DNA from: Bacteroidota bacterium
Lineage (GTDB): Bacteria > Bacteroidota > Ignavibacteria > Ignavibacteriales > Ignavibacteriaceae
Direction of reading: 5' to 3'
NCBI GenBank assembly: GCA_021824565.1
Contig: JAKAKL010000045.1
Coordinates: forward strand, 1 to 64,000
Length of the DNA: 64,000 nucleotides
Below the pieces are notes generated by a model. That model saw nothing but the letters and a program-made list of their open reading frames with translations. It had not been told where the DNA came from and did not search any database. Numbering within the stretch: position 1 is the first letter of the stretch; every line of letters begins with the position of its first letter. The position numbers were made by a program, and so were the translations under genes. This document shows, piece by piece, positions 43,975 to 61,773 of this stretch.

Positions 43975-44583
43975 AACTTAGAAACCCGGATCAGAGTATT
44001 AGAAACTGAAATGAAGTTCTTAATTGTGATGAGCAGTTACTTAGAAACTCAGAAACTCTTCTTAGAAAGTCTGACCGGCTTCTTAGAAACACAAAACCTC
44101 TTCTTAGATGTGATGAGCAGTCACTTAGAAACACGGAAGCTCTTCTTAGAAACTCTGACCGGCTTCTTAGAAACATAGAACCTCTTCTTAGATGTGATGA
44201 GTAGTCACTTAGAAACACAGAACTTCTTCTTAGAAACTCTGACCGGCTTCTTAGAAACATAGAACCTCTTCTTAGATGTGATGAGCTGTCACTTAGAAAC
44301 ACGGAAGCTCTTCTTAGAAACTCTGACCAGCTTCTTAGAAACACAAAATCTCTTCTTAGATGTGACGAGTAGTCACTTAGAAACTCAGAAGCTCTTCTTA
44401 GAAACTCTGACCGGCTTCTTAGAAACACAAAACCTCTTCTTAGATGTGATGAGCTATCACTTAGAAACACAGAACTTCTTCTTAGAAACTCTAACCGGCT
44501 TCTTAGAAACATAGAACCTCTTCTTAGATGTGATGATCTGTCACTTAGAAACACAGAACTTCTTCTTAGATGTGATGAATGGG
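43975..44583. repeat. Minisatellite: 29 x 21-bp units in an 84-bp higher-order repeat
   Basis: The array counts out as 29 consecutive 21-bp units (609 bp) without a single insertion or deletion. Most units begin TTCTTAGAAAC, TTCTTAGATGTG or CACTTAGAAAC. In the centre four unit types follow in fixed order, giving an 84-bp higher-order period: the GATGTG landmark recurs at 44107, 44191, 44275, 44359, 44443 and 44527. The outer units at the left are degenerate, and the last copy is cut short. Because 21 is a multiple of 3, open frames arise on both strands. The minus strand gives a run of about 187 codons (Ser/Arg/Leu heptads). The plus strand gives FLETQNL-type heptads, broken by TAG at 44176, 44260 and 44512. 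I treat it as a DNA repeat; see findings. Confidence 0.92.
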
Positions 44584-58211: not shown

Positions 58212-59537
58212 TTAATCCTTAATAGGAGCCAGCGGAATTGCCGTACCTCTCATAGAATGCACTTTATTAGCTACCGGAATAGTAACTTCCCTGCTCACTC
58301 TTTTTTCAAAATAATCTCTGAACCTTGTTACCATATATCTTACCGGCCATGCAGCGGCTTCTCCTAGCGCGCAAATTGTATTTCCCTCGATATTACTCGC
58401 AACAGAAATTAATAAATCAAGATCATGCGTTGAGCCTTCGCCGCGTGAAATCCTGTTTAATAATTTTAGCAGCCAGCCGGTGCCCTCGCGGCAAGGAGTA
58501 CACTGTCCGCAGCTTTCATGATAATAGAACTTTGCTATCCTGGCGAGAACCTTTACCAAATCTGTATCCTCATCCATAACGATGATTCCGCCAGTCCCGA
58601 TAGATGTTCCTACAGCCTTAAGAGATTCAGCGTCCATTTTTACGCCTTCTAATTGATCGCCGCGCAGCGGAGGCATTGATGAGCCGCCGGGAATGACGCA
58701 CAGTATTTTTTTATTCCCCGGAACCCCGCCGCCGTAATTATAAATTAAATCCGTCAGCAATGTTCCTGAAGGCAATTCATAAACGCCAGGTTTATTAACA
58801 TGACCGCTTAATCCATAAAGAATGGTGCCTGGATGCTTTGGCTCTCCGATTTTTGAAAACCACTCCCAGCCTTTATTAATTATTGCCGGAACATTTGTAA
58901 TTGTTTCAACATTGTTAATAGTTGTAGGACATCCCCACAAGCCATTCTGCGCGGGGAAAGGCGGCTTTACGCGAGGATATCCGCGTTTGCCTTCGAGCGA
59001 ATTCATCAAAGCAGATTCTTCTCCGCAGATATATGCGCCGGCGCCTTTATGAACGTAAATATTTACCGAGTAATTTCCGCCAAGTTTTTCTTTCATTTTA
59101 TCGCCGACAAATCCATAAGTGTAAGCGTCAGCTAAGGCTTTTTCAAACAGCTTTATCCATTTATGATACTCGCCTCTAATATAAACATAAGCCGCATCTA
59201 CCTGAATTGCATAAGCCGTAATTAATATTCCTTCGATCAACTGGTGAGGATTGAATTCAAATATTTGTCTATCCTTAAATGAACCTGGTTCGCTTTCGTC
59301 GCCGTTAATGCAGAGATATTTTTTCTTATTCGTAGTCTTAGGCATGAAACTCCATTTAAGACCGGCAGAAAAAGCCGCTCCTCCTCTGCCTCGCAATCCT
59401 GATTTTTTTACTTGATCAATTAAATCGTCAGGCGTTTGTGAATAAGCTTTTTTAACAGCAGTATAACCGTTGTTCTGAATATAAACATCAATGAGATGTA
59501 AATCTTTTATTTCAGGAAGTACAATTTTTTCCATCAT
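58212..59537 (-). CDS. nuoF: NADH-quinone oxidoreductase subunit F
   Basis: This 441-residue subunit carries the NADH and FMN site and the N3 cluster of complex I. The FMN/NADH glycine-rich region is GLRGRGGAAFSAGLKWSFMP, followed by INGDESEPGSFKDR. GGNYSVNIYVHKGAGAYICGEESALMNSLEGKRGYPRVKPPFPA is conserved. The Fe-S site is ESCGQCTPCREGTGW plus a later Cys in NTICALGEA. Complete. It overlaps nuoE by 4 bp (ATGA). No nuoG follows; the next gene in that direction is the helicase. Confidence 0.97.
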   Translation of the reverse strand: MMEKIVLPEIKDLHLIDVYIQNNGYTAVKKAYSQTPDDLIDQVKKSGLRGRGGAAFSAGLKWSFMPKTTNKKKYLCINGDESEPGSFKDRQIFEFNPHQLIEGILITAYAIQVDAAYVYIRGEYHKWIKLFEKALADAYTYGFVGDKMKEKLGGNYSVNIYVHKGAGAYICGEESALMNSLEGKRGYPRVKPPFPAQNGLWGCPTTINNVETITNVPAIINKGWEWFSKIGEPKHPGTILYGLSGHVNKPGVYELPSGTLLTDLIYNYGGGVPGNKKILCVIPGGSSMPPLRGDQLEGVKMDAESLKAVGTSIGTGGIIVMDEDTDLVKVLARIAKFYYHESCGQCTPCREGTGWLLKLLNRISRGEGSTHDLDLLISVASNIEGNTICALGEAAAWPVRYMVTRFRDYFEKRVSREVTIPVANKVHSMRGTAIPLAPIKD

Positions 59538-60013
59538 TTATTCTTTAAGGATTCTAAAATTTGGTCAATTTGTTGAATATCTAAATTCTCATAATAATCT
59601 TCATTAACAGCAATCATAGGCGCCGTGCCGCAAGAGCCCATGCATTCGACTTCTTCGAGTGAGAACATTTTATCGTCGGTTACCTGACCGTTGTCAATTC
59701 CTAATTTGTCTTTTACATGCTCGTAAATTTTGTATCCGCCCCTAAGCATGCAAGAGACATTTGTGCAAACTTGAAGATGATACTTCCCTGCCGGCTTCTG
59801 ATGATACATCGTGTAGAATGTCGTAATACCTAAAACATCTTCCGGCTTCATTTCAAGAACTGAAGCGACTTCTTCCATTACCTCGTATGATACCCACCCA
59901 TTTTGTTCCTGACCAATATACAAAGCCGCCATAACAGCCGGTTGTTTATCTGGATAATGAGTTGTAATCTCATTAATCTTATTGATATTTTCTTCTGTGA
60001 ATTTGAATGACAT
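59534..60013 (-). CDS. nuoE: NADH-quinone oxidoreductase subunit E
   Basis: This 159-residue thioredoxin-like subunit binds the 2Fe-2S cluster N1a through Cys83, Cys88, Cys124 and Cys128 (VCTNVSCMLRGG and CMGSCGTAPM). YPDKQPAVMAALYIGQEQNGWVS and GITTFYTMYHQKPAGKY are the usual helical start. It is translationally coupled to nuoF. Upstream it is separated from nuoD by 506 bp that hold the four-helix-bundle gene, although the other nuo genes here are spaced at most 7 bp apart or overlap. Confidence 0.97.
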   Translation of the reverse strand: MSFKFTEENINKINEITTHYPDKQPAVMAALYIGQEQNGWVSYEVMEEVASVLEMKPEDVLGITTFYTMYHQKPAGKYHLQVCTNVSCMLRGGYKIYEHVKDKLGIDNGQVTDDKMFSLEEVECMGSCGTAPMIAVNEDYYENLDIQQIDQILESLKNK

Positions 60014-60015
60014 TT

Positions 60016-60522
60016 TATAAGTTCAAGTTTAAGTTTAAGATTATGGTTAAGTTTATGTTCAAGTTGTTTTCAAATGTTTAAGAATTAGTTGAATCATAGT
60101 TGATTTCCTCTTCGTAAATTCTGTCAGAACTGCTTTTAATTAATCCAACTAACATCGAAATAATTTCATATAATATTGATTTTCCCTTTTCTGCTAACGC
60201 ATCAGAAATCTTTTTCCTTTGCACTAATAAATCCAAACAAGCTGCACATTCAAGCGCCGATCCTCTTGCTATATCATAATACCGGCATTTGTCTTTGCCT
60301 GTGTATTTCCCGGTTCCTTCAGCAATATTTAATGGAATTGAAGTTGAAGCTCTATCCAATTGTTCAACAACATTAATTTTAATATCTAAATCAAATATTT
60401 CATTCGTAAATTCAATAAACTCCAGACTTCGCTGATATACAATTAATTTTTGATGACTGAAATTCATATATTCTTAAACTTACTCTTGAACTTGAACTTA
60501 CACTTGAACTTAAACTTGTTCA
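60016..60522. mobile_element. Putative inserted cassette: four-helix-bundle gene flanked by inverted hexamer arrays
   Basis: Left of the gene, 60018-60060 consists of AAGTTYAAG/TTTAAG repeats (AAGTTCAAGTTTAAGTTTAAG and onwards). Right of it, 60472-60520 has the same words on the other strand (CTTAAACTT, CTTGAACTTGAACTT, ACTTGAACTTAAACTTG). The two flanks therefore form imperfect inverted repeats around one gene. The unit separates nuoE from nuoD in an otherwise tightly packed operon. No transposase is present, so movement would need help in trans. Confidence 0.5.
60078..60467 (-). CDS. Four-helix-bundle protein (S23/IVP family)
   Basis: This 129-residue protein shows the pattern of the family found first as intervening sequences in 23S rRNA genes. 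It begins MNFSHQKLIVYQRSLEFIEFTNEIFD, then VEQLDRASTSIPLNIAEGTGKYTGKDKCRYYDIARGSALECAACLDLL (the conserved Q.....S...NI.EG and R.F...A.GS..E motifs), and ends in a helix and a polar tail. Family members are small helical proteins of unknown role, often scattered between genes in Bacteroidota and Ignavibacteria. Here it is inside the nuo operon in the same direction. Confidence 0.9.
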   Translation of the reverse strand: MNFSHQKLIVYQRSLEFIEFTNEIFDLDIKINVVEQLDRASTSIPLNIAEGTGKYTGKDKCRYYDIARGSALECAACLDLLVQRKKISDALAEKGKSILYEIISMLVGLIKSSSDRIYEEEINYDSTNS

Positions 60523-61773
60523 TTTATCAGCTTCGCCCATAACCGGATCAATGCTACCAACAATCGCCACCACATCAGAAACCATGTGTCCTTTTACAAG
60601 ATGCGGCACAGCTTGAAGATTGACAAACGAGGGCGAGCGGATTTTACACTTCCACGGATAGCCTTTGCCGTCGCTAATTAAGTAAAAGCCAAGTTCTCCT
60701 TTAGGATTTTCTACTGCACTGTAAACTTCACCTACCGGAGGGTTCATTCCGAAGTTAACAATCATAAAATCGTGAATGAGTTCTTCCATCTTTGAATAAA
60801 CCTCTGCTTTTTTAGGAAGAACACGCTTTGGTTGATTAGCCAAAGTTTCACCTTGCGGCATCTTATCCAGAATTTGACGTACAATCTTTGCGCTTTCTTT
60901 AGCTTCATCAACACGTACAAAATAACGCGCAAGGCTGTCGCCTTCATTATAAGTAACTACTTTAAAATCCATTTCATTATAGAATAAGTACGGAGTAGCT
61001 CTTCTTAGGTCAAATTCAACGCCGCTGCCGCGAAGGCTAGGTCCTGTCAATCCAAGGCTGACAGCATCTTCAGCATTTATAACACCTATTCCATCTAAAC
61101 GTTCTATAAAAATACGATTGGTATTAAGAAGTCTTTCGCATTCGTCTAAATTTTCATCAAACTGATCGATGAACCATTTTACTTTTGCAAGCGCTTCCGG
61201 CTGAGCGTCGTTTGCAACGCCGCCAATTCTTGTGTAGCTGTTCGTAAATCTTGCGCCGCAAAGAATATCCCATATATCAAGGATCTTTTCTCTTTCTCTT
61301 AATGTCCAAAGAAAAACTGTAAGCGCACCAACATCCATCGCCAGGGCACCAACAGCAACAAGATGCGAAGCAATTCTTGCAAGTTCGGAAACCATCATTC
61401 TGATGTATTGCGCGCGAGGCGGGGCTTCTATGCCGGCTAACTTTTCAACTGCGAGCGCCCACGCTACGTTATTTGCCATAGGCGAAAGATAATCAAGACG
61501 GTCGGTGTGAGGAATAAATTCATAGTAAGACATGTTCTCAGCCATCTTTTCGTAGCCGCGGTGCAGATAGCCAAGTTCGGGAACGCAAGCCATAACCGTT
61601 TCGCCGTCAAGCCTCAACAGCAGTCGAAGCACGCCGTGTGTTGCCGGATGCTGCGGTCCCATATTCAATATCATTTCATTTTCAAGAGCGTCTTCAATTG
61701 TAATATCAGTATCGGCGCCAAGAAGAGCTTCAATTATTTTCGGATGAACTTCGTCTTTATTTAATTTCTGCAT
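60520..61773 (-). CDS. nuoD: NADH-quinone oxidoreductase subunit D
   Basis: This 417-residue 49-kDa-type subunit lines the quinone site with NuoB. Signatures: MILNMGPQHPATHGVLRLLLRLDGE, with the quinone-site His in the GPQHPATHG motif; ELGYLHRGYEKMAENMSYYEFIPHTDRLDYLSPM; and SLGLTGPSLRGSGVEFDLRRATPY. The C-terminus has VVAIVGSIDPVMGEADK. NuoC and NuoD are separate, unlike in E. coli. It lies 7 bp after nuoC. Confidence 0.97.
   Translation of the reverse strand: MQKLNKDEVHPKIIEALLGADTDITIEDALENEMILNMGPQHPATHGVLRLLLRLDGETVMACVPELGYLHRGYEKMAENMSYYEFIPHTDRLDYLSPMANNVAWALAVEKLAGIEAPPRAQYIRMMVSELARIASHLVAVGALAMDVGALTVFLWTLREREKILDIWDILCGARFTNSYTRIGGVANDAQPEALAKVKWFIDQFDENLDECERLLNTNRIFIERLDGIGVINAEDAVSLGLTGPSLRGSGVEFDLRRATPYLFYNEMDFKVVTYNEGDSLARYFVRVDEAKESAKIVRQILDKMPQGETLANQPKRVLPKKAEVYSKMEELIHDFMIVNFGMNPPVGEVYSAVENPKGELGFYLISDGKGYPWKCKIRSPSFVNLQAVPHLVKGHMVSDVVAIVGSIDPVMGEADK

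Follow-up and report, generated by a model that had tools for sequence, protein, structure and literature searches.

An S23 gene between inverted hexamer arrays in a complex I operon looks like a transposase-less mobile cassette

In the window (the whole stretch of 64,000 nucleotides that was analysed), the genes of the complex I operon are closely spaced: nuoE and nuoF overlap by 4 bp, while nuoC and nuoD are separated by 7 bp and nuoB and nuoC by 4 bp. An earlier note on this DNA pointed out a gap of 506 bp between nuoD and nuoE amid this tight spacing, and the open reading frame coordinates bear it out (60014-60519). The features concerned are the following.

60520-61773, minus strand: nuoD, the host gene upstream, whose TGA stop directly adjoins the 5' array
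60473-60518, minus strand (the sense strand): 5' arm, about seven AAGTTY-type hexamers, CTTAAACTTGAA-type
60078-60467, minus strand, as the nuo genes: S23/IVP four-helix-bundle gene, 129 aa
60018-60065, minus strand: 3' arm, inverted array of about eight units TAAGTT by TRF; AAGTTY is read on the plus strand
60014-60519, minus strand: the entire putative inserted cassette, from the nuoD stop to the nuoE start
59534-60013, minus strand: nuoE, the host gene downstream

The note also described exactly one S23/IVP gene in this gap, with hexamer arrays in opposite orientation on each side, and both points stand. The S23 frame is the sole gene within the spacer and exceeds the cut-offs of both family models (PF05635: 77.1 bits, E = 1.4e-21, curated cut-off 33.8; TIGR02436: 73.6 bits, cut-off 24); solved structures among its relatives are 2GSC (XCC0516) and 2RLD. 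The arms are mutually inverted, 38 nt being complementary at 82%; the inverted-flank score of this S23 gene is 26, and the arms are the only array pair of the AAGTTY type in the tandem-repeat listing of the window. Since S23 alone is encoded and the spacer contains no transposase gene, the cassette is not a transposase-encoding insertion sequence. The word ATAAA flanks it on both sides, possibly by chance; a target duplication cannot be demonstrated here because the sister junctions are too diverged to compare. Elsewhere in the window, positions 44017-44578 hold an 84-bp tandem repeat (6.6 copies, 91%) composed of two 42-bp halves.

The nuoD gene was detected in 60 of the 61 family genomes, and the 60 junctions inspected represent 59 genomes (L152 repeats L056). 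An S23 gene is found at the nuoD-nuoE junction in ten of the 59 and is absent from the other 49. Type 1, with AAGTTY-like arms, occupies seven junctions (G000, G002, G006, G008, G030, G051 and G062), and is decayed in G002, frameshifted in G008 and cut by the contig end in G062; type 2 is present in G025 and G027, and type 3 in G068. An array or arm without the gene was recognised by eye at eight junctions (G007, G009, G019, G022, G023, G044, G061 and G064). Neither an S23 gene nor an evident array is present at 41 junctions, with a spacer of at most 30 bp in 32 of these; they provide the empty sister sites that the earlier note had proposed to look for. In a tree of 136 S23 proteins, which omits the G025 nuo copy as too short, the six nuo copies fall in three separate places, and three changes are forced. 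In the tree of nuoD and nuoE from 57 genomes, G030 and G068, which carry type 1 and type 3 respectively, group as near-identical sisters, and the decayed copy of G002 has as its sister G009, where the 3' arm stands alone; one clade contains a series from the intact cassette (G000) through the decayed gene (G002) to the solo 3' arm (G009). Judging from these trees, the nuoD-nuoE site has been hit repeatedly, by three unrelated S23 lineages, and the likeliest reading of many solo arrays is that they are remnants of decayed cassettes.

The same architecture was looked for around other S23 genes. The genome under study contains nine PF05635 matches; eight sets of flanks were inspected, and the expectation that other S23 genes would also be flanked by arrays held in that short tandem arrays stand beside most of them, and failed in that the units are different. 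At the genus level, 59 intact S23 genes were considered (23 of 82 frames were left out as short or weak), and the controls were 349 genes from 461 kb of the same genome. Inverted flanks with a score of at least 18 surround 28 of the 59 S23 genes vs 7 of the 349 controls (p = 1e-20), and tandem repeats on both sides with a score of at least 10 surround 16 vs 3; the ten best-scoring controls include no tandem array. The other 31 genus copies score below 18, and many copies have one-sided arms or no detectable ones. Another inverted-flank scoring left out two S23 frames with short flanks.

A scan of named genomes yielded 80 S23 loci in many phyla, archaea included. For the cross-phylum statistics, six of 94 loci were left out (short flanks or frames) and 13 viral loci were kept apart, which leaves 75; inverted flanks with a score of at least 18 are present at 44 of them vs 2.7% of mismatched pairs. 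Tandem repeats that score at least 8, mostly heptamers, stand on both sides of the gene at 49 loci. The array unit is 6-8 nt long and varies between S23 lineages, and on the sense strand G outnumbers C in the 5' arm of 78 of 85 elements. The S23 cassette can thus be described as one S23 gene between inward-pointing inverted arrays of 6-8-nt repeats with a G-rich sense strand, and this architecture is common to many phyla. Among the type 1 nuo cassettes (L085 left out), 5' arms are more similar between species (34-48) than the 5' and 3' arms of one element are to each other (20-31.5); therefore, there is no sign of homogenisation between the arms, and their concerted evolution was rejected for this type.

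The arms and the gene move together. In pairs of non-orthologous loci, an arm similarity of at least 20 is found in about 1% of the pairs below 0.4 protein identity, in 5.8% at 50-60%, in 19 of 35 at 60-80% and in all three above 80% (22 of 38 at 0.6 or more). Loci L199 (Hydrogenedentes) and L201 (Coprothermobacterota) have in common a block of 460 bp at 83% identity, which is precisely the gene with its arms; the flanks are unrelated. S23 is present in 31 of 72,556 plasmid records, and phage records gave no match at the sensitivity used.

Natural filled and empty sites were compared at seven plasmid sites and one viral site. In event E, Trichormus (L353) and Scytonema (L362) are filled, and Microchaete, Nostoc linckia and Aulosira (L357, L358 and L364) are empty at about 97% identity; in each of the two pairs examined by script, the 5-bp word GTAAT is exactly duplicated, and the two pairs count as one event. 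In event C1, the plasmid pNsp_a of Nostoc ATCC 53789 (L369) compared with pNsp_c of the same strain (L370) has TTCTA at either end, beside which one base differs. A 5-bp target duplication is therefore observed in two insertion events, and both duplications include all or the first bases of the stop codon upstream. The duplication in event C2 is imperfect (TAATG/TTATG), as is AAGGA on both sides of the viral site L380 compared with L384, L385 and others, where the empty spacers vary. Overall, a clean duplication is found in only two of the eight insertions compared, an imperfect one in two (L370 and the viral L380), and none is readable at events A, B, D and F. The clean empty plasmid sites (L357, L358 and L364; L370 at junction 1; L375) contain no array, and their filled counterparts have arms.

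S23 genes were also noticed in CRISPR operons. In two cyanobacteria, Anabaena 90 and Pseudanabaena galeata, the gene has cas6 and cas4 as its neighbours (L354 and L365), and the array units of the two differ. In Picosynechococcus 7003 it lies between cas10 and cmr3 (L367), a site that is empty in strain 7002.

Between co-directional neighbours, S23 genes are mostly sense (sense to antisense 70:2, vs 85:16 for background small genes); other antisense copies are found at nrdB/nrdA of Nostoc edaphicum and at the viral loci L278-L280. The type 1 nuo S23 is under purifying selection, with pN 0.19 and pS 0.73 between our copy and that of G006, the closest pair, for which dS is near saturation. In nine of 129 elements the S23 gene is nested, i.e., a frame stays open through the whole gene and into long coding sequence on both sides (L010, L198, L199, L200, L213, L218, L244, L257 and L268). 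All these frames are at offset 2; none of the 129 elements has one at offset 1, and antisense frames give one case in 387. Two viral copies checked among 14 viral loci (L281 and L282) are likewise at offset 2, which makes eleven in total. The hosts are mostly restriction or defence enzymes: N6/N4 DNA methyltransferases, a DISARM DrmD-like helicase and an MmeI/PglX-like methyltransferase; we presume that those of the two viral copies are PglX-like and DnaE-like. A depletion of stops in the +2 frame of non-nested S23 genes was considered and rejected because the neighbouring genes show it equally strongly.

The earlier note also proposed that the same hexamer arrays could be the route by which the S23 family spreads, and this is not supported: the unit differs by S23 lineage, and AAGTTY arrays are common without S23. 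Allowing two mismatches, the genome contains 49 and 78 overlapping matches to such arrays, in dozens of places, vs nine S23 matches; therefore, the hexamer is not a mark of the S23 family, and arrays unlinked to the gene, which the note had named as evidence against its view, do occur. The 26 array stretches inspected in this genome are mostly in spacers, often right after a stop codon. Among 113 genomes of the order, arrays of the form (AGTNNNN)4AGT were found in 2 of 8 without S23, 11 of 22 with one or two copies, 38 of 50 with three to eight and 30 of 33 with more. The correlation with S23 number (Spearman 0.30, kinship ignored) is partly trivial because the arms themselves are counted. In the stretches fetched, array density (again ignoring kinship) is 1 per 380 kb in S23-free genomes, 7 per 334 kb in S23-rich ones and 6 per 397 kb in the genome under study.

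Other arrays were noticed as well. In the genome under study, L157, L162 and L166 each consist of two hexamer arrays placed close together as a palindrome; they enclose no gene and are oriented the opposite way to S23 arms. In the complete genome G018 the control pattern (TGANNNN)4TGA has 254 matches vs nine for the AGT pattern, which indicates another abundant heptamer class. The heptamer-like array AGTAATCAGTTGGCAGTCGCCAGT of G030 is coding sequence in L330, L332, L333 and L334, where the domains bearing it are, we assume, several T9SS-like C-terminal sorting domains; the AGT arrays dispersed in G030 are therefore no evidence of cassette movement and were rejected as such.

The closest known systems include the intervening sequences (IVSs) of 23S rRNA. 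According to PMC4990558, that of Coxiella has an S23 frame, a 28-bp stem, excision by RNase III and variable GACAGAT heptamers. As in the IVSs of Coxiella, Leptospira and Brucella, the nuo cassette has one sense S23 frame between inverted, complementary ends; the size of about 0.4-0.5 kb, the sporadic distribution and, in Coxiella, the tandem heptamers adjoining the frame are further likenesses. Unlike these IVSs, it lies outside any rRNA gene, in an mRNA spacer between nuoD and nuoE, it has lineage-specific arrays on both sides, and target duplications occur among its relatives. The G-rich heptamers of Xanthomonas and Nostoc (GGGAATC, GGGGAYT) are, according to PMC4692102, 7-nt tandem arrays in spacers, often in convergent pairs; the G strand is the sense strand where the array follows a stop and the antisense strand where it precedes a start. 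The S23 arms are similar in being short tandem arrays in spacers, outside nuo mostly of 7-mers, but they bound a gene and travel with it; the AAGTTY hexamer itself falls outside that class, which is defined by a 7-nt unit with G-tracts. A search of PMC4692102 gave no hit for S23 or "intervening". The accessory protein Avd of diversity-generating retroelements (DGRs) is reported to be similar to PF05635 (PMC10053308); a reverse transcriptase link, and with it membership of the DGRs, was rejected for the nuo cassette, as none of the three RVT_1 matches of the genome (on contigs C129, C123 and C15) is on the contig of the window (C105). A literature search (excluding most subscription journals and all of bioRxiv) revealed no paper in which S23 genes located elsewhere than in rRNA are connected with arrays at their flanks or with insertion.

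MITEs and REP-RAYT elements are small and intergenic, with inverted ends and solo remnants, and so is the S23 cassette; it differs from them in having its own S23 gene and, as ends, variable short tandem repeats. On the whole, the nuo cassette has the appearance of a mobile element that lacks a transposase and is akin to the intervening sequences of 23S rRNA.

The arrays could instead have a role in RNA: they would pair in the nuo transcript, and RNase III would cut there, so that S23 is excised or its expression is separated from that of nuoD and nuoE. The layout is that of the Coxiella IVS, in which heptamers precede S23, the stem has 28 bp and RNase III carries out the excision (PMC4990558), the prevalence of the sense orientation is strong, and the arms are able to pair in the predicted fold. 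However, the predicted fold of the nuo element is no better than shuffles (z = -0.64), and arm mismatches in 85 elements show no G-U bias (129 kept vs 142 broken, p = 0.47), so that selection for an RNA stem was rejected on these two results. Moreover, some copies are antisense, and in nested copies the host frame runs open through the element, for which there would be no need if the mRNA were cut. We regard such a role as rather unlikely for the nuo arrays, with the remark that a cassette might both transpose and be cut as RNA.

It could also be supposed that the arrays are independent repeats, produced by slippage or spread by another process, and that S23 lands or survives in array-bearing spacers by chance. 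The dozens of S23-free AAGTTY arrays in the genome under study and the dispersed heptamers of Xanthomonas, Nostoc and Beggiatoaceae (PMC4692102 and PMC4679880) are in line with this; nonetheless, the arms track the S23 lineage, array presence grows with S23 number, and the clean plasmid sites have arms when filled and no array when empty, which makes the supposition improbable. That S23 serves complex I as a functional accessory gene and is maintained in the operon for this reason is hardly credible: it is on the same strand as nuo, is under purifying selection and is found in several relatives, but 49 of the 59 junctions have no S23 gene, the site is occupied by three unrelated S23s, and the gene is decayed in G002 and frameshifted in G008.

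We therefore consider it quite probable that the nuo spacer represents an S23 cassette: a mobile element, about 0.45-0.6 kb long, which inserted at the end of nuoD and has no role in complex I. It is well supported that it arose by insertion and is one member of a widespread class; the claim that an inserted unit with inverted array ends is tolerated in the operon draws support from the empty sister junctions and from the filled and empty plasmid pairs. The interpretation given in the earlier note is thus partly supported: the insertion reading holds but needs widening.

As to mechanism, the arrays may be the ends recognised during movement, and the S23 protein may bind them, or their RNA, and recruit a mobilising enzyme, which would be encoded elsewhere because the cassette has no transposase. 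S23 would be expressed through co-transcription with the host operon, and decay of the cassette would leave solo arrays. It is tempting to go further, and we lean slightly towards the view that S23 cassettes are pan-prokaryotic minimal mobile elements without a transposase, which have lineage-specific inverted arrays of 6-8-nt units, produce a 5-bp duplication at gene ends and also settle as dual-coding copies inside long reading frames with the host frame left open; on this view, the class would include, as members or debris, the intervening sequences of 23S rRNA and many of the heptamer arrays that stand alone.

S23 proteins and bacterial intervening sequences have been known for decades with, to our knowledge, no account of how they spread; the description of heptamer arrays was separate from them. 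The question raised is by which enzyme such a cassette is moved, given that a small four-helix bundle is the only protein it encodes. Linking the S23 genes and the heptamer arrays yields an element that can be tested, and culturable cyanobacteria offer natural sites with and without it.
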